36,421 nt of DNA from an uncultured Flavobacteriaceae bacterium (GTDB lineage Bacteria > Bacteroidota > Bacteroidia > Flavobacteriales > Flavobacteriaceae), in the NCBI GenBank assembly GCA_905479435.1, contig CAJQMN010000017.1, forward strand, positions 1 through 36,421. Direction: 5' to 3'. A program made the translations under genes and the position numbers. Under the pieces are notes generated by a model. That model was not told the DNA's origin. It searched no databases and saw only the letters and a program-made list of their open reading frames with translations. Of the stretch, positions 7,552 through 24,503 are shown in pieces. How positions within the stretch are numbered: position 1 is the stretch's first letter; every line of letters starts with the position of its first letter.

Positions 7552-8250
7552 TTATTTTAAAATTGAATTAATCGGGATTTCCATAGGTTTTTTATCCTTT
7601 TCAAACCATTTACCGGGTAAACTTCCTTTTAGGGTAATACTTTCATCTACTACTTCCAACCAACTGCCTTCACGTAAACCTAGAACAGGTGTTTGATTAA
7701 AAAAATGATATTCTTTAATCCTAGTCTCCCTAGTTTCTCCCATATGTTTGGAACCTTTTACTGGTTCTATATAATGAGCATTAATATTAAATGGAATAAT
7801 TCCTAGCGTTAAAAAACTTGGAGGATATACGATAGGCATATCATTTGTGTTCATCATGGAAATTCCGCAAATATTACTTCCAGCACTAGTTCCCAAATAT
7901 GGAGTTCCTGTATTTAAAACCTCAGAAAGAATTGAAAAAAGATTTTGTTTATACAATTGATTAACTAATTCAAAAGTATTACCCCCACCCGTAAAAATAG
8001 CCTCAGCTTTTTCTATGGCTTCGATAGGAGATTCAAACTCATGGATTCCAGTAACATCAATTCCAATTGTATTAAAATAATGAGCAACTTTTAAAGTATA
8101 CTCATCATAAGAGATTCCACTTGGCCTAGCATAAGGAATAAAAACTAGCGAAGAGACACCCTCAAAAAAAGAAGTTAATGTTGGCGATAAATATTCTAAA
8201 AAACCACTACCATGAATTGTAGATGAGCTTGCGACAAGAAGTTTCTTCAT
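7552..8250 (-). CDS. pepE: Dipeptidase E (peptidase family S51)
   Basis: PepE is a cytoplasmic serine peptidase that cleaves Asp-Xaa dipeptides. The 232-residue length fits the family. The nucleophile elbow is GTSAGSNICG (Ser in the SAGS motif) and the preceding loop is FTGGGNTFELVNQLYK, which helps form the oxyanion hole. A conserved His lies in INAHYIEP, and the N-terminus MKKLLVASSSTIHGSGFLEY is typical. There is no signal peptide. It is a single minus-strand gene facing the ribB operon. A good Bacteroidota promoter reads toward it, with a -7 box ending only 7 bases before the ATG and a perfect 16-base palindrome overlapping the -33 region. Ser51-family cyanophycinases are larger and would be the main alternative. 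Confidence 0.93.
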   Translation of the reverse strand: MKKLLVASSSTIHGSGFLEYLSPTLTSFFEGVSSLVFIPYARPSGISYDEYTLKVAHYFNTIGIDVTGIHEFESPIEAIEKAEAIFTGGGNTFELVNQLYKQNLFSILSEVLNTGTPYLGTSAGSNICGISMMNTNDMPIVYPPSFLTLGIIPFNINAHYIEPVKGSKHMGETRETRIKEYHFFNQTPVLGLREGSWLEVVDESITLKGSLPGKWFEKDKKPMEIPINSILK

Positions 8251-8257
8251 AAATTTT

Positions 8258-8290
8258 CAAAAATACATAATGCATTTGTTAATTAACAAA
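8258..8290 (-). promoter_or_regulatory. Promoter of pepE, possibly leaderless
   Basis: On the minus strand TTTG (8290-8287) is followed, after 21 bases, by TATTTTTG (8265-8258), an exact match to the Bacteroidota -7 consensus TAnnTTTG. The -7 box ends 7 bases upstream of the pepE ATG, so the transcript would begin at or within a few bases of the start codon. Confidence 0.5.
8275..8290. repeat. Perfect 16-base palindrome, candidate operator
   Basis: TTTGTTAATTAACAAA is a perfect inverted repeat of 16 bases. Its right-hand end supplies the TTTG of the proposed pepE -33 box, so a dimeric repressor bound here would block the promoter. In AT-rich DNA such palindromes can arise by chance; no second copy was noticed in the window. 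Confidence 0.35.
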
Positions 8291-8361
8291 ATATTATTGG
8301 ATTCTATATGAAAATTTAGAATTCGAATATATATCTTGTAAAATAATAACTTTTAATTAAA

Positions 8362-9189
8362 GTGAATAAGAAATTAATTTTAATAGTATTATTAATCTGT
8401 TCCTCTAAGCTATTCGCTCAGAAAAATAATGTATTTCTGCGTGGAATGGTAAGAGATTCATTAAACTTGATTAAAGATGTTCACGTTATAAATCTAAATA
8501 CTTTAAAAGGAACATATTCTAATGATTATGGACAATATAGGATTACTGTTTCCTTAGGTGACACCTTAGAATTCACTTCTGTACAATTTAAATCTGTCAA
8601 AAAAATTATAACTGACAGAATATTTTTCAGTAAAAAATTAAACCTAATTTTAAAGAATAAGAATTACGTTTTAAATGAAGTAACCGTTAAAAAACATGAT
8701 TTAATTGGAGATTTAAGAATAGATCGAAAAAAAGTTCCTCAAGACACCATAGCGCTCAAGGGCAGGAATTTAAGCAATATTATTGATAATATATCTAAAG
8801 AATCTCGAAAAGGAATTTTAAAAAAACCCACCAAAAAACATAGTAAACTTGCTGAGACAAGTATGAGAAATACAGATCCATCAAGGTCTTTTAATGGAGC
8901 TAATTTGATGGGTATTGTTAATGGTTTATTTAGCTTAATTCCAAAAAAGAAGAAAAATAAATTATCAAAAAAAGAATCAAAAGAGCTTTTGAAAAATAAA
9001 ATATTAACCGATTTTGGAACTAGTTTTTTTGAAGAACTAAATATAAAAAATAGTCAAATTACTTCTTTCTTAGAGTACTGTATGCAATTTAATGTTGAGA
9101 AATTATATGAAGAAAATAAAAGACTTGATCTCATTAAATTATTGGAAGATGAAAGCATTAATTTTTTAATTGAATTAAAACAAAAGTAG
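8362..9189 (+). CDS. Exported CarboxypepD_reg-like domain protein, first of a tandem pair
   Basis: The function is not known. A clear signal peptide (NKKLILIVLLICSSKLFAQ) is followed by a carboxypeptidase-regulatory-like/CNA-B-type beta domain at about residues 22-115 (GMVRDSLNLIKDVHVINLNT, KGTYSNDYGQYRI, GDTLEFTSVQF). This domain is typical of the N-terminal plug region of Bacteroidota SusC-like proteins but here stands without a beta-barrel. A Lys-rich middle (about 155-210) and a C-terminal helical segment with SFLEYC complete the protein. The start is GTG at 8362, chosen because it begins the signal peptide exactly. It shares the beta domain and the C-terminal SFLEYC module with the next gene, so the two arose by duplication. 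Likely periplasmic. Confidence 0.8.
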   Translation: MNKKLILIVLLICSSKLFAQKNNVFLRGMVRDSLNLIKDVHVINLNTLKGTYSNDYGQYRITVSLGDTLEFTSVQFKSVKKIITDRIFFSKKLNLILKNKNYVLNEVTVKKHDLIGDLRIDRKKVPQDTIALKGRNLSNIIDNISKESRKGILKKPTKKHSKLAETSMRNTDPSRSFNGANLMGIVNGLFSLIPKKKKNKLSKKESKELLKNKILTDFGTSFFEELNIKNSQITSFLEYCMQFNVEKLYEENKRLDLIKLLEDESINFLIELKQK

Positions 9190-9247
9190 TTTTAGCAAAA
9201 AAAAAATAAATAAATTGTACTTTTATAGTGTAACAATACTTTCTAAC

Positions 9248-10057
9248 TTGAAGACTGAGATATCTCTTTTTATTTTAATTATTTTTAGCAGCACCCTACT
9301 AGCACAAAAAAATAAATTTTGGCTTTATGGAAAACTTAAAGATTCTAGTAGTGTCGTGAAAAACGCTAATATTATAAATTTAAAAACCAATAAAGGAACC
9401 TTTTCTAATGATTTTGGGGATTATAAAATTGTTGTTTCTGAAGGAGACACATTACAATTCTCATCTGTACAACACAAAACCATATATCGAGTTATTAATA
9501 ATTTCATCTATAGATCTGAAATTTTAGATGTTTTTATGATCAATTCTAGGTATGAATTGGATGAAGTAGTACTTAAAAGAAATGATTTGGATGGTTTTTT
9601 ATCACTAGACTTAAAAAAAACACCCGAAGATAGAAGAGCTGAAGCATTAAAAAACACTATGGATTTATCAAGTGTAAATATGAATATTATTTACGATGGT
9701 GATTATATAGATCAAAGAGTAAGACCACCCATGAATAATGTTGATCCTATAGCTATGTTTGCTGGAGCTGGTGGTGGAGTATCAATACCATTTAAATATT
9801 CAGAGAGGCTTTGGTCATTAAGAAGAGATTTAAAATTTAGAGAAAATTTTCCTAAGATGTTATTAAGTGAATTTGGAGAACCTTTTTTTGAAAATGATCT
9901 CAAAATTCCGAGAGAAAAATATTATAGTTTTTTAGAATATTGTAATCCATTGGGTATAGAAAATCTATTTAAACAAAACAGAAAGATAGAATTGATTAAC
10001 ATGTTAAAAAAAGAGAGTATTACTTATCTACTTCTCATAAATAAAAAAGAAGAATAA
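9248..10057 (+). CDS. Exported CarboxypepD_reg-like domain protein, second of a tandem pair
   Basis: The function is unknown. This is a paralogue of the preceding gene. The signal peptide KTEISLFILIIFSSTLLAQ leads into the same beta domain (GKLKDSSSVVKNANIINLKT, KGTFSNDFGDYKI, GDTLQFSSVQH). The C-terminal module FFENDLKIPREKYYSFLEYC also matches its neighbour. The middle differs: an acidic/Arg-rich stretch and a PPMNNVDPIAMFAGAGGG segment replace the Lys-rich region. No ATG begins the signal peptide. The TTG at 9248 gives a standard-length one, while the TTG at 9215 would add eleven residues. Start-codon choice is therefore uncertain. It lies 58 bases after its paralogue and 17 before the DUF6702-like gene, suggesting one transcript. 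Confidence 0.75.
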   Translation: MKTEISLFILIIFSSTLLAQKNKFWLYGKLKDSSSVVKNANIINLKTNKGTFSNDFGDYKIVVSEGDTLQFSSVQHKTIYRVINNFIYRSEILDVFMINSRYELDEVVLKRNDLDGFLSLDLKKTPEDRRAEALKNTMDLSSVNMNIIYDGDYIDQRVRPPMNNVDPIAMFAGAGGGVSIPFKYSERLWSLRRDLKFRENFPKMLLSEFGEPFFENDLKIPREKYYSFLEYCNPLGIENLFKQNRKIELINMLKKESITYLLLINKKEE

Positions 10058-10074
10058 TTTCAATCCCTTGCTTA

Positions 10075-10572
10075 ATGTTATCTACAAGAAAAATTGCATG
10101 TGTATTTTTACTGTTTTCTCTAGCTTTTACAACTCACAAATACTACCTAAGTTTAACACAAATTGAGTATAACAATAATCAAAAAAGTCTAGAGGTAATT
10201 ATCAATGTATTCATGGATGATATTGAATTGGCCATAAATAAAGAGTATGGTGTAGATCTGAGACTTACAACAAAACAAGAGCTAGAAGATGTTGATGTTT
10301 ATTTTGAGAAATATTTGAGAAAAAATTTAAGTTTTTTAGTTAATAACAAATTAATTGAATATAACTTTATTGGAAAAGAATATGAGGGAGACTTGGTCTA
10401 TTTTTACATCGAATCAACAGCCATAGAAAATCCATTATCCTTGAAAGTAACTAACACTATTCTCTTTGCTTATTTTGATCAACAACAAAATGTTATAAAA
10501 TTTAAGAATGGTTCCAAAAGACAAAGCAAAATTTTATCAAAAGCCACAAATCAAGCTTTGTTAAATTTTTGA
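10075..10572 (+). CDS. DUF6702-like exported protein
   Basis: The biochemical role is unknown. The 165-residue protein has an N-terminal hydrophobic export segment (about residues 7-20). The diagnostic run HKYYLSLTQIEYN (21-33) follows, then IINVFMDDIELAI and NTILFAYFDQQQNVIKF near the C-terminus. I recall this pattern from small flavobacterial proteins now grouped as DUF6702, which commonly sit directly upstream of an M1 metallopeptidase gene, as here. Mostly beta strands are predicted from alternating hydrophobics. Given the constant linkage it may help the exported M1 enzymes fold or localise, which is inference. Membership in DUF6702 rests on memory of the motif, not a search. Confidence 0.75.
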   Translation: MLSTRKIACVFLLFSLAFTTHKYYLSLTQIEYNNNQKSLEVIINVFMDDIELAINKEYGVDLRLTTKQELEDVDVYFEKYLRKNLSFLVNNKLIEYNFIGKEYEGDLVYFYIESTAIENPLSLKVTNTILFAYFDQQQNVIKFKNGSKRQSKILSKATNQALLNF

Positions 10573-10627
10573 CAAAAACCTCAATTTATTTACACTAGTT
10601 TATTAATTTCAACAAAAATTTAATTTT

Positions 10628-12886
10628 ATGAAAAAAATAGTATCTATAACTCTTAGTTTTTTATTTATTATTTCTGCTATTTCAGCTCAAAATTCAGACA
10701 AAAAACAGATAAAAGGGCATACAGACCAAAATAAGTTCAGGCAACTTAAAGATGTATTACCTACACCTAATAATAGAAGAACTGCCTCAGGTGCCCCTGG
10801 CTATGAGTATACTCAACAAAAGGTTGATTATAAAATGGATATTGTTTTAGATGAAAAAACAAATAGAATTTTTGGTAATGAATCAATTACTTACAAAAAT
10901 AATTCTAAAGATTATCTAGAATATCTATGGGTTCAATTAGATCAAAACATGAGGTCTCCTGACTCTAAAACTCCACTAGCAAATTCAGAAAAATTAGGAA
11001 ACACTCCTTACAATGGGCCAAAAACTTTTACAAAAAATAACATTTTAAAACCTGCAGATTTTGGATTCAAAATTGAAGAAGTTAACAATGTAAATGGCAA
11101 CCAGCTCTCTTACACTGTAAATAGGACCATGATGAGAATTAACTTACCACAACCCCTTACTCCCGGTGGAACTTTTCAATTTAATATTAAATGGAATTAT
11201 TTAATTAATAATTCGGTTACAGATGGGGGAAGATCTGGATTTGAATTATTTGATGATGGAAATAAAAATTACACCATTGCCCAATTTTTTCCAAGATTAG
11301 CTGTTTATGATAATGTTGAAGGTTGGCAAAACATGCAATTCTGGGGAAGAAGTGAATGGGCACTAGAATTTGGAGATTATGATGTAAAAATAACTGTTCC
11401 CGCAGATCATATAGTTGATGCAACAGGTGAATTATTAAATGAGAAGAAAGTATTAACAAAAGAACAACTTAAGCGTTTTGAAAAAGCAAGAACTTCATTC
11501 ACAGACCCTGTTTTTATTGTTACTCAAGATGAAGCAGAAATAGCGGAAAAAGAAAGATCTAATAAAACTAAAACTTGGCATTTTAATGCTAAAAATGTTC
11601 GTGATTTTGCATTTGCTTCTTCGAGAAAATATATTTGGGATGCGATGGCTGTAAACATAAATGGTAAAACTGTAATGGCTGTTTCATTGTATCCAAAAGA
11701 AGGAAACCCTCTTTGGGAAGAACACTCTACCAGAGTTGTTGCAAACACCCTAGAGGAATACTCCAAAATGACTTTTGATTATCCATACAGCAAAGCTATC
11801 TCTGTTCATGCAGATAGACAAGGTATGGAATATCCAATGATTTGTTTTAATTATGGGAGACCAAACCCAGATGGTTCATATTCAGAAAGAACTAAGAGAG
11901 GAATGATTGGAGTTATTACCCACGAAGTAGGTCATAATTTTTTTCCAATGATAGTCAATTCAGATGAACGTCAATGGACATGGATGGATGAAGGTATAAA
12001 TTCATTTGTTGAAATTTTAGCAGAATTAGATTACGATCCAAACTTTATTACAGGAAATCTTCCTAAAGATATTGTGGGTTACATGAGTATTAATCAAAAT
12101 AATCTTTCACCAATAATGTCTCAAGGTGATTATGTTAAAAATTTTGGCCCAAATGCATACACAAAACCTGCCGCTGGACTCTATATGCTAAGACAAACGA
12201 TTATGGGTCCAGAGTTATTTGACTATGCCTTTAGAACCTACGCTAAAAGGTGGATGTTTAAACATCCAAGTCCAGCTGATTTTTTTAGAACCATGGAAGA
12301 TGCGTCAGCTATGGATTTAGATTGGTTTTGGAGAGGTTGGTTTTACACAACAGATTACAATGATATTGCTTTAAAAGAAGTTAAAAAGTTCTACTTAACA
12401 GATCAACCTACAGATGAAGCCAAAAAAATGGCAAAAAGATATAGCATGGATCTTGCGGATTATGAGGGGAAACTTGTGTATTTTAAAGAGGAACAAAAAG
12501 GTGCTGTTAATGAGGGATTAATTGCATCAGAAATACCCTTAATAAAAGATCATATAGCTTCAATGTCAGATGAAGAAAAATCATTACTAAAAGAAATTCC
12601 AAATTATTTTTATGAAGTAACTTTTGAAAAACCAGGTGGCTTAGTAATGCCTTTAATTGTTGAGTTAGAATATAATGATGGTACGAAAGAACGTCATAAT
12701 TATCCTGCACAAATTTGGAGATATAACGACAATCAGGTTTCTAAAGTTTTTAAAACCACCAAAGAGATAAAAAAAATCACTATTGATCCAGATCTTGAAA
12801 CCGCTGATATAGACACCTCAAATAATAGTTGGCCTAAAAAAGATAATTCTAAGTTTGATAAATTTAGAAAAAAATTAAAAGGATAA
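10628..12886 (+). CDS. M1 family metallopeptidase (first of a tandem pair)
   Basis: This is a zinc metallopeptidase of the gluzincin/M1 clan, exported to the periplasm or cell surface. The 752-residue protein starts with a signal peptide (KKIVSITLSFLFIISAISAQ). An N-terminal beta-saddle domain follows (about 60-290), then the thermolysin-like catalytic domain. The zinc motif is HEVGH at 432-436, with the third ligand Glu455 after 18 intervening residues (WTWMDEG). In place of the GxMEN exopeptidase motif it reads GMEYP at 399-403, so amino-terminal recognition may differ from classical aminopeptidases. The C-terminus is a beta domain ending in a Lys-rich tail, with no recognisable type IX secretion signal domain. 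Its neighbour at 12926 is a close paralogue. Confidence 0.92.
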   Translation: MKKIVSITLSFLFIISAISAQNSDKKQIKGHTDQNKFRQLKDVLPTPNNRRTASGAPGYEYTQQKVDYKMDIVLDEKTNRIFGNESITYKNNSKDYLEYLWVQLDQNMRSPDSKTPLANSEKLGNTPYNGPKTFTKNNILKPADFGFKIEEVNNVNGNQLSYTVNRTMMRINLPQPLTPGGTFQFNIKWNYLINNSVTDGGRSGFELFDDGNKNYTIAQFFPRLAVYDNVEGWQNMQFWGRSEWALEFGDYDVKITVPADHIVDATGELLNEKKVLTKEQLKRFEKARTSFTDPVFIVTQDEAEIAEKERSNKTKTWHFNAKNVRDFAFASSRKYIWDAMAVNINGKTVMAVSLYPKEGNPLWEEHSTRVVANTLEEYSKMTFDYPYSKAISVHADRQGMEYPMICFNYGRPNPDGSYSERTKRGMIGVITHEVGHNFFPMIVNSDERQWTWMDEGINSFVEILAELDYDPNFITGNLPKDIVGYMSINQNNLSPIMSQGDYVKNFGPNAYTKPAAGLYMLRQTIMGPELFDYAFRTYAKRWMFKHPSPADFFRTMEDASAMDLDWFWRGWFYTTDYNDIALKEVKKFYLTDQPTDEAKKMAKRYSMDLADYEGKLVYFKEEQKGAVNEGLIASEIPLIKDHIASMSDEEKSLLKEIPNYFYEVTFEKPGGLVMPLIVELEYNDGTKERHNYPAQIWRYNDNQVSKVFKTTKEIKKITIDPDLETADIDTSNNSWPKKDNSKFDKFRKKLKG

Positions 12887-12925
12887 TATCTCATTCATAA
12901 ATTTTCACTTTAAAATATTTTGACA

Positions 12926-15067
12926 ATGAATAAATTAAAATGTTTACTACTTTCAATACTGTTTGTTTCTCCAATGATACAAGCACAAGAACGAACAACA
13001 AAAACACAAAAGGGACATATTAACCAAAATAAGTTTAGACAACTTAAAGATGTGCTAGCAACACCAAACAGCCAGAGAACAGCCTCCGGTGCTCCTGGAA
13101 TAAATTACAGCCAACAAAAAGTAGATTATGTAATGAGTATTGTTCTAGACGATGACAATCAAAAAATTACGGGTAACGAAACCATTACTTACCATAATAA
13201 TTCTGATGATACATTAAAATACCTGTGGGTTCAATTAGATCAAAATGTTAGAGCAAAGGATTCAAAAACTCCAGACATTACTCCGAGTAGTAAGATTCCA
13301 GAAAAATTAAACAAACGTTGGTATAATGCCATGTTTAGTAAACCTTTTGATGGTGGATTTAATATCATGAGCGTAAAAAACATTGATGGTAGTGATTTAT
13401 CACATACCATCAATCAAACCATGATGCGTATCAATTTAGAAAAACCTCTAGCATCAGGTGAAAAATTTGAATTTAAGATATCTTGGTGGTATAACATAAA
13501 TAATCACAGAATAAACAGAGGTAGATCAGGGTATGAACATTTTTCAAAAGATGGAAACAACAATTATGTTATTGCTCAGTTTTACCCTAGATTATGTGTT
13601 TATGATAATGTAGAGGGATGGCAAAATGATCAATTTTGGGGTCGAAGTGAATTTGCATTAGAATTTGGTGACTTTACGGTAGATATTACAGTACCATCAG
13701 ATCATATCATGCAAGCTACTGGAATTCTTAAAAACGAAAAAGAAGTACTAAGTAAAAAACAACAGAAACGTTTAGAAGAAGCAAAAAGAACTTATGACAA
13801 ACCTGTGTTAATTCAAACTCAAGAAGAAGCTATATCTGCTGAAAAAAACCGATCAAATAAAACAAAAACCTGGAGATATTATGCTGAAAATGTTCGAGAC
13901 TATGCATTTGCTACTTCAAGAAAATTTATTTGGGATGGAATGGCTGTTGATATCAATGGAAGGTCTGTAATGGCTTATTCTTTATATTCTAAAGAAGCCA
14001 ATCCATTATATGGCGACCACTCTACTCTAGCTACTGCCCAAACTTTAAAAACCTATTCAAAATATACTTTTGACTACCCATACCATAAAGCAGTTTCTGT
14101 TGATGGACAAATGGGAATGGAATATCCACAAATGGCTTTTAATCCAGGGAGACCAGATTTACCAGACGGAGGGTATTCAGATCGAATGAAGTACTTGATG
14201 ATTAAAGTTACTATTCATGAGGTAGGTCATAATTTCTTTCCAATGATTGTAAATTCTGATGAACGTCAATGGACATGGATGGATGAAGGGTTGAATTCAT
14301 ATGTAGAAATGTTAGCTGAATTAGATTACGATCCAAACTTCCCATTAAGAAGAGGACTGCCAAAAAACATCGTACCTTACATGGACGGTGATCAATCTAG
14401 AATTGCACCTATTATGTCTAAAGGTGATAATGTATATAGCTTTGGTAATAATGCATATGGTAAGCCAGCAACTGCACTTTGGATTCTTCGTGAAACCATT
14501 ATGGGACCAGAATTATTTGATCATGCTTTTAAAACTTATTCGCAAAGGTGGATGTTTAAACACCCTACGCCTGCAGACTTCTTCAGATCTATGGAGGATG
14601 CGTCAGCGATGGATTTAGATTGGTTTTGGAGAGGTTGGTTTTATTCAACCGATGTTACTGATATAGGAATAAAAGGTGTTAAAAAATTTATTAAAGAAGA
14701 TGCTGAAAAAGAAGTGAATTTTATTGAAGATACGTCTGAAGGGTTAACCTTTTCCTCAGAAAATGCTAAAAAAGCAAATTCAAACTTCTTTTATGAAATT
14801 ACATTTGACAAGCCTGGAGGATTAGTTATGCCAATTATTGCCGAATATACTTACAAAGATGGAACAAAAGAAAGAAAAGTATATCCTGCTCAAATTTGGA
14901 GGTATAATGATAAAGAAATTACCAAAGTGGTAAAATCAGATAAAGAAATTATAAATATAACCATAGATCCAGACTTAGAGACTGCAGATGTAGATACATC
15001 CAATAACAGTTTCCCAACAAAGCAAGATTCTAAGTTTGATAAGTTCAAAAACAAAATCAAAGGTTAG
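12926..15067 (+). CDS. M1 family metallopeptidase (second of a tandem pair)
   Basis: This close paralogue of the preceding gene has 713 residues from the ATG at 12926; a TTG two codons earlier is a less likely start. The signal peptide is NKLKCLLLSILFVSPMIQAQ. The zinc site is HEVGH at 431-435 with Glu454 as the third ligand, again in the WTWMDEG context, and the exopeptidase motif position reads GMEYP. Compared with its partner it carries an altered loop near residue 110 (SSKIPEKLNKRWYNAMF). It also lacks a segment of roughly forty residues before the C-terminal beta domain, where the first enzyme has an acidic, helix-rich insert. These differences suggest different substrates. A strong hairpin terminator follows 20 bases downstream. 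Confidence 0.92.
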   Translation: MNKLKCLLLSILFVSPMIQAQERTTKTQKGHINQNKFRQLKDVLATPNSQRTASGAPGINYSQQKVDYVMSIVLDDDNQKITGNETITYHNNSDDTLKYLWVQLDQNVRAKDSKTPDITPSSKIPEKLNKRWYNAMFSKPFDGGFNIMSVKNIDGSDLSHTINQTMMRINLEKPLASGEKFEFKISWWYNINNHRINRGRSGYEHFSKDGNNNYVIAQFYPRLCVYDNVEGWQNDQFWGRSEFALEFGDFTVDITVPSDHIMQATGILKNEKEVLSKKQQKRLEEAKRTYDKPVLIQTQEEAISAEKNRSNKTKTWRYYAENVRDYAFATSRKFIWDGMAVDINGRSVMAYSLYSKEANPLYGDHSTLATAQTLKTYSKYTFDYPYHKAVSVDGQMGMEYPQMAFNPGRPDLPDGGYSDRMKYLMIKVTIHEVGHNFFPMIVNSDERQWTWMDEGLNSYVEMLAELDYDPNFPLRRGLPKNIVPYMDGDQSRIAPIMSKGDNVYSFGNNAYGKPATALWILRETIMGPELFDHAFKTYSQRWMFKHPTPADFFRSMEDASAMDLDWFWRGWFYSTDVTDIGIKGVKKFIKEDAEKEVNFIEDTSEGLTFSSENAKKANSNFFYEITFDKPGGLVMPIIAEYTYKDGTKERKVYPAQIWRYNDKEITKVVKSDKEIINITIDPDLETADVDTSNNSFPTKQDSKFDKFKNKIKG

Positions 15068-15087: not shown

Positions 15088-15120
15088 AAAAAAAACCACG
15101 ATGTACATCGTGGTTTTTTT
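15088..15120. terminator. Bidirectional intrinsic terminator between the M1 peptidase and lgt
   Basis: A perfect 18-base palindrome, CCACGATGTACATCGTGG (15096-15113), is flanked by an A-run on the left (15088-15095) and seven Ts on the right (15114-15120). This gives a stable stem with a U-tract in both orientations. It lies between convergent genes and would end both the M1 block and the cysS-yidD-lgt operon. Confidence 0.92.
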
Positions 15121-23399: not shown

Positions 23400-24503
23400 T
23401 TATTTTCCTACTTTTAACAGTTCTAATTCAAATATTAAATCCGCTTTTTTAGGAAAAGGACCATTTCCAGCTTCACCATATCCTAAATAATAAGGGATAA
23501 ATAGTCTAACTTTACCACCTACTCTCATTTTCATTATTGCTTCTTTAACTCCAGGAATTAAGGGACGTTTGTCTAATGTGAATTTAAAAGGAGTGCTTTC
23601 TTTGGTCGATTGAATTAATTTACCATCTGCTAAATACATAGTATAATTGATTGTGGTTTCGACAGAAGAACTAAACCTTTTACCTTTTCCTCTTCTTAGG
23701 GTTAAGATTTGTAGACCTGACTCTTGTTTTTTTGCTTTTTTTACATTCATTTTTTCGTAAAAAACTTTTTGATCCGAAGCAAATTTCTCTAATCTAGCTT
23801 TTTCAACGCTCTCTAATTCTGCAAGACGTTCTTCTTCTTTTTCTACACTTTTTGCAATTCCTTCTTCAAAAACTTTTACAGCATCATATGTTTTTGCAAC
23901 ATCACCTTTTTTTACAATGGTAATTTTTTTAATACTATCAGAGTTAGCAATTGAATCTAGAATATTCAAATCGCTAACAACTTTTCCAAAAACAGAATGA
24001 CATCCTACTCTTGGATTACTACAATCTTTTAATTGGTTTTCATTAGTATAAGCATCCAACCATGGTGTTGGTTTGTAAGTAATAAAAAACTGACTTCCAT
24101 TAGTGTTAAAACCAGAATTTGCCATAGATAAGACTCCTTTACTATCATGTTTCAAATCTGGATTGAACTCATCATAGAATTTATATCCTGGACCTCCTTG
24201 CCCATTCCCCATAGGATCTCCACCTTGAATCATAAAATCTTTAATAACGCGATGAAATGTTAACCCATCATAAAACTTCTTCCCTTTTAATGAATCTGTA
24301 ACTTTTGGGTTCGTACCCTCTGCCAACGTGATAAAGTTTGCGACAGTTAAAGGAACTTTATCAGGGAATAATTGAATAATAATTTTTCCTTTGTTGGTTT
24401 CCATTTCAGCGTAAATACCGTCATTTAATTCACTGTGTTCGTCTTTACATGCCGTAAAAACTATAAAAAACACTAGTATTAATTGTAAAATTCTATTTTT
24501 CAT
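23400..24503 (-). CDS. Cyclophilin-FKBP fusion peptidyl-prolyl isomerase lipoprotein
   Basis: This is an exported two-domain proline isomerase. A short hydrophobic signal ends in FTAC, with Cys19 as the probable lipidation site, immediately followed by Lys-Asp-Glu. A cyclophilin domain (about 29-212) carries the active-site LTFHRVI (Arg85), MIQGGD and NGSQFFI (Gln138). It includes an insertion before HSVFGKV with two cysteines (161 and 168) that could form a disulfide. A charged, probably coiled-coil linker (about 213-260) leads to an FKBP domain (about 262-367) with [12 protein letters not shown] and [12 protein letters not shown]. The lipobox has Phe at -3, which is weak. The KDE after the cysteine resembles the Bacteroidota lipoprotein export signal for the cell surface. 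It lies 7 bases downstream of another FKBP gene. Confidence 0.92.

Follow-up and report, generated by a model that had tools for sequence, protein, structure and literature searches.

Our analysis suggests, with a probability of about 0.6, that five consecutive genes in a 36,421-nucleotide stretch of DNA from an uncultured Flavobacteriaceae bacterium (contig CAJQMN010000017.1 of assembly GCA_905479435.1; hereafter the window) are the local form of an operon conserved in Flavobacteriaceae, which combines BamP-type accessory subunits of the β-barrel assembly machinery (BAM) with a DUF6702 protein and M1 peptidases. An initial annotation, made from the sequence alone, had proposed an uncharacterized envelope peptidase system in which small beta-domain proteins serve as partners of the peptidases. 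The envelope block and the joint travel of its gene families stand, whereas the small proteins as peptidase partners do not, since they are very probably homologues of a BAM subunit, similar to BamP2–BamP4. The five genes are:

8362–9189, plus strand: gene A, BamP homologue, distal copy, 275 amino acids, GTG start (NCBIfam BamP; PDB 9n2d_E; AlphaFold2 and Foldseek)
9215–10057, plus strand: gene B, BamP homologue, proximal copy (NCBIfam BamP; PDB 9n2d_E)
10075–10572, plus strand: gene C, DUF6702, signal-like N-terminus followed by an invariant His (PF20420, 144.9 bits, cut-off 24)
10628–12886, plus strand: gene D, exported M1 metallopeptidase (PF01433, 52.4 bits, cut-off 27.7; HExxH-18-E, GMEY)
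12920–15067, plus strand: gene E, exported M1 metallopeptidase, paralogue of D (PF01433, 49.2 bits, cut-off 27.7; HExxH-18-E, GMEY)

The open reading frames are separated by gaps of 17–55 bases, and all five products have signal-like N-termini, which by eye end in AQ in A, B, D and E. The co-directional block of exported genes is thus as initially described, with its two neighboring paralogue pairs (A–B, 37% identity over 282 columns; D–E, 60% over 756 columns) and a single DUF6702 gene between them. For B, either TTG at 9215 or TTG at 9248 may be the start, an uncertainty that corrects the initial call.

BamP is a subunit of the BAM complex of Flavobacterium johnsoniae, resolved by cryo-electron microscopy as chain E of PDB 9n2d (Liu et al. 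2025, PMC12611786). The NCBIfam BamP model (NF053692) matches A over residues 1–267 (76 bits) and B over residues 13–269 (66.2 bits), so that the homology runs the full length of both proteins and includes the C-terminal domain. A search of solved structures found 9n2d_E with A at 1e-5 and with B at 2.3e-4; A also matched filaggrin weakly (0.08). The two small proteins scored 32.1 and 27.5 bits against the Pfam family CarbopepD_reg_2, slightly below its cut-off of 32.2 bits. Profile-profile comparison of 196 BamPs from outside Flavobacterium, the window pair included, with 40 Flavobacterium BamPs gave 99.9% for whole proteins and 98.7% for C-terminal domains, against 0.3% for a negative control in which a C-domain profile was compared with an N-domain profile. 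The window pair alone gave 95.4% for whole proteins. We set aside a profile comparison between the C-domains of the window pair and the family profile (98.7%), because that profile contains the window sequences.

These results also place the C-terminal SFLEYC module of A and B, which the initial annotation could not assign to any family: it corresponds to the three-helix C-terminal domain of BamP. SFLEYC pairs with LFLMFC of 9n2d_E in a weak second stretch of the alignment that is not significant alone, and the C-terminal parts alone matched BamP at 0.0051 and 1.7e-4. Across 223 aligned BamP-like proteins, the motif consists of Phe (93%), Phe or Tyr three residues on (93%) and then Cys (55%), and its Phe is a nearly invariant column in alignment A1.

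A structural model of A, predicted by AlphaFold2 from 119 sequences (mean predicted local distance difference test score, pLDDT, 81; predicted template modeling score, pTM, 0.43), has the layout of BamP, with an N-terminal domain, a long linker and a three-helix C-terminal domain. A single-sequence prediction of A (pLDDT 35) was discarded. The parts of A are:

8422–8667, plus strand: N-terminal beta-sandwich domain, residues 21–102 (pLDDT blocks of 95–98 to residue 100)
8695–8961, plus strand: long low-confidence linker, approximately residues 112–200 (pLDDT blocks of 76 falling to 44–51)
8968–9183, plus strand: C-terminal helices at residues 203–225, 230–243 and 254–274 (pLDDT blocks of 95–98 from residue 211)

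Foldseek ranked 9n2d_E first for this model (1.4e-6). We claim no structural match for the C-terminal domain because that of BamP is poorly resolved in the published structure, according to the accessible text of PMC12611786. By homology, the linker of A would correspond to the BamP segment that inserts into the BamA barrel (PMC12611786). Overall, A and B resemble BamP and BamP2–BamP4 in length, in the three-part layout (modeled for A), in the F, F/Y, C motif of the C-terminal domain, in a signal sequence followed by a conserved Gln, and in their slot ahead of DUF6702 and M1. They differ from BamP in that A is only 21–22% identical to Flavobacterium BamP, in their linkers, in scoring below the equivalog cut-off, and in that A and B stem from a lineage-specific tandem duplication.

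The genomic slot argues for the same assignment. We surveyed it within the family through its DUF6702 gene, starting from 149 genomes, of which 128 had a DUF6702 match and 21 had none. The survey set comprised 98 loci, namely the window and those from 97 of the 127 other DUF6702 genomes (30 were not fetched); two second DUF6702 loci (L094 and L113) and a solitary BamP locus (L095) were excluded. Flanks were short in three loci (L041, L071 and L105), and BamP pieces of less than 150 amino acids, one in L033 and one in L021, were not counted as genes. BamP (one to four genes), DUF6702 and M1 lay side by side in 93 of the 98 loci, with M1 present in 97 and BamP in 93, and pepE was divergent and adjacent in 77. 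Writing P for a BamP piece, D for DUF6702 and M for M1, the orders were PPDM (47 loci), PPPDM (18), PDM (17), PPPPDM (4), DM (4), PPPDMM (3), PPDMM (2) and PPPMDM, PPPPPDM and D (1 each). Junctions between BamP genes were tight, 75 of 109 being at most 20 bases or overlapping (match-to-match distances), and the median spacing was 72 bases from BamP to DUF6702 (92 junctions) and 65 from DUF6702 to M1 (97 junctions). The fetched flanks reached at most about 8.5 kb; within them, the window's upstream neighbors LptG and RibAB recurred only in G131, a complete genome of the same genus (L033), and in L093, and its downstream neighbors Lgt, YidD and CysS only in G131; gene order beyond the block is therefore not kept. 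Since the same order of the block genes recurs across the family, we do not attribute the A–E pattern to chance, and the synteny survey suggested with the initial annotation confirms that the three gene families travel together.

BamP-like matches at 1e-10 were present in 147 of the 149 genomes, and a single gene, in one genome, exceeded the BamP cut-off (366.9 bits). This gene, whose product gives a full-length alignment with 9n2d_E (402 bits), directly precedes DUF6702 and M1, behind three more BamP-like genes (87–108 bits) and a divergent pepE. In addition, when named genomes were searched with the F. johnsoniae BamP chain, 42 loci were returned, all from Flavobacterium and not including the strain of the structure paper, and all 42 had the order pepE, two to four BamP genes, DUF6702 and one M1; as the loci were found through BamP, its presence there is by construction. 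F. johnsoniae CI04 is an example, with PepE, three BamPs, DUF6702 and M1 in order and a proximal BamP 92% identical to 9n2d_E. A lone BamP gene, found outside the block in family genomes, may be the counterpart of the fourth F. johnsoniae BamP. The source genome of the window carries such a third homologue, outside the DUF6702–M1 block (contig C78, L095, 15–788, minus strand). Its sister (bootstrap 100) is a gene of the complete same-genus genome that likewise lies outside the block (L232, 6865–7662), and the two are possible counterparts of BamP4.

The M1 peptidases D and E both score above the PF01433 cut-off and carry the zinc motif HExxH-18-E, which was present in all 155 M1 sequences compared (109 from the family and 46 from outside it). 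GAMEN is the aminopeptidase (exopeptidase) motif of M1. At its expected position we found GMEY in 154 of the 155 sequences and GGMEY in one, and for this reason we do not claim aminopeptidase specificity. A metalloprotease at BAM has a precedent in Escherichia coli, where BepA belongs to family M48 (PMC13067283, as described in its accessible text). BepA and the M1 enzymes are alike in proposed role only, as exported metallopeptidases acting on substrates stalled at BAM; they differ in family, and the putative tie of M1 to BAM comes from gene linkage.

Gene C, at 144.9 bits, is a DUF6702 member by Pfam. In the accessible text of PMC12537917, DUF6702 is described as a "metal sequesterase", with metal affinities measured on another member and M1 neighbors already noted. 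The block proteins share with the DUF6702 of that paper the Pfam family and a His after the signal region (101 of 101 aligned family sequences), and differ from it in that only 39 of the 101 have a small residue ahead of this His and in lacking a second conserved His. Outside the family, a second His reaches 59% at one column (59 sequences). The source genome also encodes a divergent second DUF6702, in which Ala immediately precedes the His, 12 bases before a HupE/UreJ gene (contig C24, L094, 4388–4894 and 3800–4375, minus strand).

Several observations weigh against our reading. A and B, at 76 and 66.2 bits, fail the BamP equivalog test, for which the curated cut-off is 230 bits; we therefore do not file them as BamP equivalogs, and because they lie so far below this value, a function like that of BamP2–BamP4 is assigned to them by homology only. 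The C-terminal domains of the window pair alone reached only 44.5% against Flavobacterium BamP. In the structural comparison with VIA-align, residues 21–102 of A matched 9n2d_E with a Z of 13.0, second to a SusC NTE domain with 14.0, so that the fold of the N-terminal domain alone cannot separate BamP from SusC NTE. The survey was entered through DUF6702, which places the 21 family genomes without it outside its reach, and within it four of the 98 loci had DUF6702 and M1 without BamP and one had DUF6702 alone. The purified F. johnsoniae BAM contained BamA, BamD, BamG, BamH, BamM and BamP, and neither M1 nor DUF6702 is named in it in the accessible text of PMC12611786, which speaks against stable membership of either in the complex. 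Finally, among 60 DUF6702 loci from 59 genomes in other families of the class (not every matching genome was fetched), M1 lay within 3 kb of DUF6702 in 45, and a small BamP lay near DUF6702 in none. Since DUF6702 and M1 occur together there without BamP, their basic job need not involve it. The simplest reading of these loci would be that DUF6702–M1 is older and that BamP joined it in Flavobacteriaceae.

These last points give some weight to an alternative that we consider possible but unlikely, namely that A and B are BAM plugs, while DUF6702–M1 is an older, independent unit for metal handling or peptide turnover that BamP moved in front of and shares transcription with. It is favored by the outside loci, of which 31 of 60 have a HupE/UreJ gene near DUF6702, by the lone BamP-like genes elsewhere in genomes, and by the composition of the purified complex. 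The outside clusters resemble the block in that DUF6702 sits beside an M1 found by the block M1 profile (>800 bits), and differ in having a HupE/UreJ permease gene instead of BamP and a divergent M1 in 30 of 60 loci. Full-length BamP-like proteins elsewhere in these genomes were weaker, the best reaching 117.6 bits among the matches listed, compared with 172–216 bits for the block BamP copies of the window, G127, G131, G242 and G342 among the same matches. However, mere co-location fits poorly with an association that has outlasted the flanking gene order in 93 of the 98 loci, which come almost entirely from different genera. HupE, moreover, is present in 136 of the 149 family genomes yet in none of the 98 blocks; its retention in genomes and loss from blocks suggest that the block was remodeled rather than frozen.

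The initial annotation's own proposal, that the small beta proteins each act for one M1 enzyme, with DUF6702 shared, is very improbable. It rested on a parallel doubling of BamP and M1, and the check on covarying paralogue numbers does not bear this out: two M1 genes occurred in only 6 of 98 loci and two or more BamP genes in 76, and the numbers were equal in 21. All six two-M1 loci have at least two BamPs if an interrupted gene in G131 is counted, as the proposal would have it, but M1 doubling was not significantly associated with BamP multiplicity (6/0 and 70/22; Fisher p = 0.21), and the rank correlation of the counts was weak and uncorrected for kinship (Spearman 0.21, p = 0.047, 92 loci). 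All 42 Flavobacterium loci have two to four BamPs but one M1, and BamP already has a known binding partner in BAM.

The two duplications also differ in age. In IQ-TREE trees of sequence subsets (midpoint-rooted, with weak deep BamP nodes), A and B were sisters (ultrafast bootstrap 98) with the proximal G131 BamP outside, and D grouped with one G131 M1 (94) and E with the other (100). By the IQ-TREE topology, the duplication of M1 would predate the split from G131 and the A–B duplication would postdate it. FastTree likewise recovered A and B as sisters (0.975) in a set of 223 BamPs from which the interrupted G131 gene was absent. In G131, the orthologues of D and E stand in swapped order, and the block has two intact M1 genes and one uninterrupted BamP, the proximal BamP (L033, 9078–9896, minus strand) being interrupted by in-frame stop codons. 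In L026, L031 and L046 the two M1 genes belong to different subtypes, of which one is related to D of the window, and in L046 one M1 lies before DUF6702. This M1 doubling is of separate origin, and it was possibly acquired by transfer.

A role in peptide scavenging, with periplasmic M1 and cytoplasmic PepE degrading imported or cell-wall peptides and BamP and DUF6702 incidental, is equally improbable: the divergent pepE neighbor in 77 of 98 loci and the intact zinc motif of M1 would fit it, but pepE is on the opposite strand, its adjacency was not found in 21 loci (some near contig ends), M1 outside the family accompanies DUF6702 and HupE, and GMEY (once GGMEY) occupies the GAMEN position throughout.

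At its edges, the block has the limits initially described, with a gene that diverges upstream and a hairpin behind E:

7552–8250, minus strand: pepE, dipeptidase E (S51), divergent neighbor (Pfam Peptidase_S51, 171.9 bits; NCBIfam PepE, 278.9 bits, cut-off 156)
8251–8361, no strand assigned: intergenic space separating pepE from the block, presumed site of the divergent promoters (from position only)
15089–15120, no strand assigned: terminator hairpin, possibly bidirectional, separating E from the convergent lgt (14-pair stem and T run)

The Bacteroidota promoter consensus is TAnnTTTG, and a search for patterns of this type had no match in five upstream regions, including 8251–8361. Scans of the window gave no excess of sigma-70 sites (40, versus 48.9 in shuffles) or terminators (2 versus 4.2). 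We nonetheless accept the 15089–15120 hairpin because of its 14 pairs; the scan placed it on the minus strand, and being symmetric in sequence it could act on both strands. From the spacing of the genes, we infer that A–E are transcribed as a single operon. Elsewhere in the window, a cyclophilin domain and an FKBP domain are fused in one protein by Pfam (23400–24503, minus strand).

Literature searches of limited depth, covering titles and abstract openings, found no published link of BamP to M1 or DUF6702. The text of PMC12611786, its gene map in Extended Data Fig. 3a apart, contains neither "peptidase" nor "DUF"; PMC12537917, the only paper found with "DUF6702", does not contain "BamP" in its text, and the text of PMC12578637 contains neither term.

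How a BAM-associated operon of this kind might work can be outlined from the F. johnsoniae complex, in which, as described in the accessible text of PMC12611786, the N-terminal domain of BamP sits on BamA POTRA4/5, the linker enters the BamA barrel and the three-helix C-terminal domain lies between POTRA1 and BamD; cells without any BamP homologue become sensitive to darobactin. Two Omp85 matches were found in each of the source genome and G131. By analogy, the beta domain of A and B would dock on POTRA4/5, the linker would thread into the barrel and lateral seam of BamA, where it would serve as a removable plug, and POTRA1 would be tied to BamD by the SFLEYC domain, with paralogues bearing different linkers acting as alternative plugs. 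More weakly, the M1 enzymes may be active periplasmic metallopeptidases at or near BAM that act on stalled or surplus substrate peptides in the manner of BepA, and DUF6702 may be a small periplasmic helper that binds metal. The link of M1 and DUF6702 to BAM is the part of our preferred explanation that carries the most doubt. A more specific version, which is speculative and in our judgment rather improbable, is a quality-control branch of BAM in which exchangeable BamP plugs seal the BamA seam and a dedicated M1 enzyme with DUF6702 clears substrates stalled upon plug displacement. Such a branch may have arisen when BamP genes took over the position of a HupE metal permease gene next to an older DUF6702–M1 pair, and would constitute a BepA counterpart from an unrelated peptidase family.

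BamP was described only in 2025, and in most of the sampled family genomes its genes stand in an operon-like block together with those of a metallopeptidase and of a protein that may bind metal. This makes M1 and DUF6702 concrete candidates for a part in outer-membrane quality control in Bacteroidota, and the M1–DUF6702 pair, so far noted as neighbors in the accessible text of PMC12537917, gains a possible site of action.

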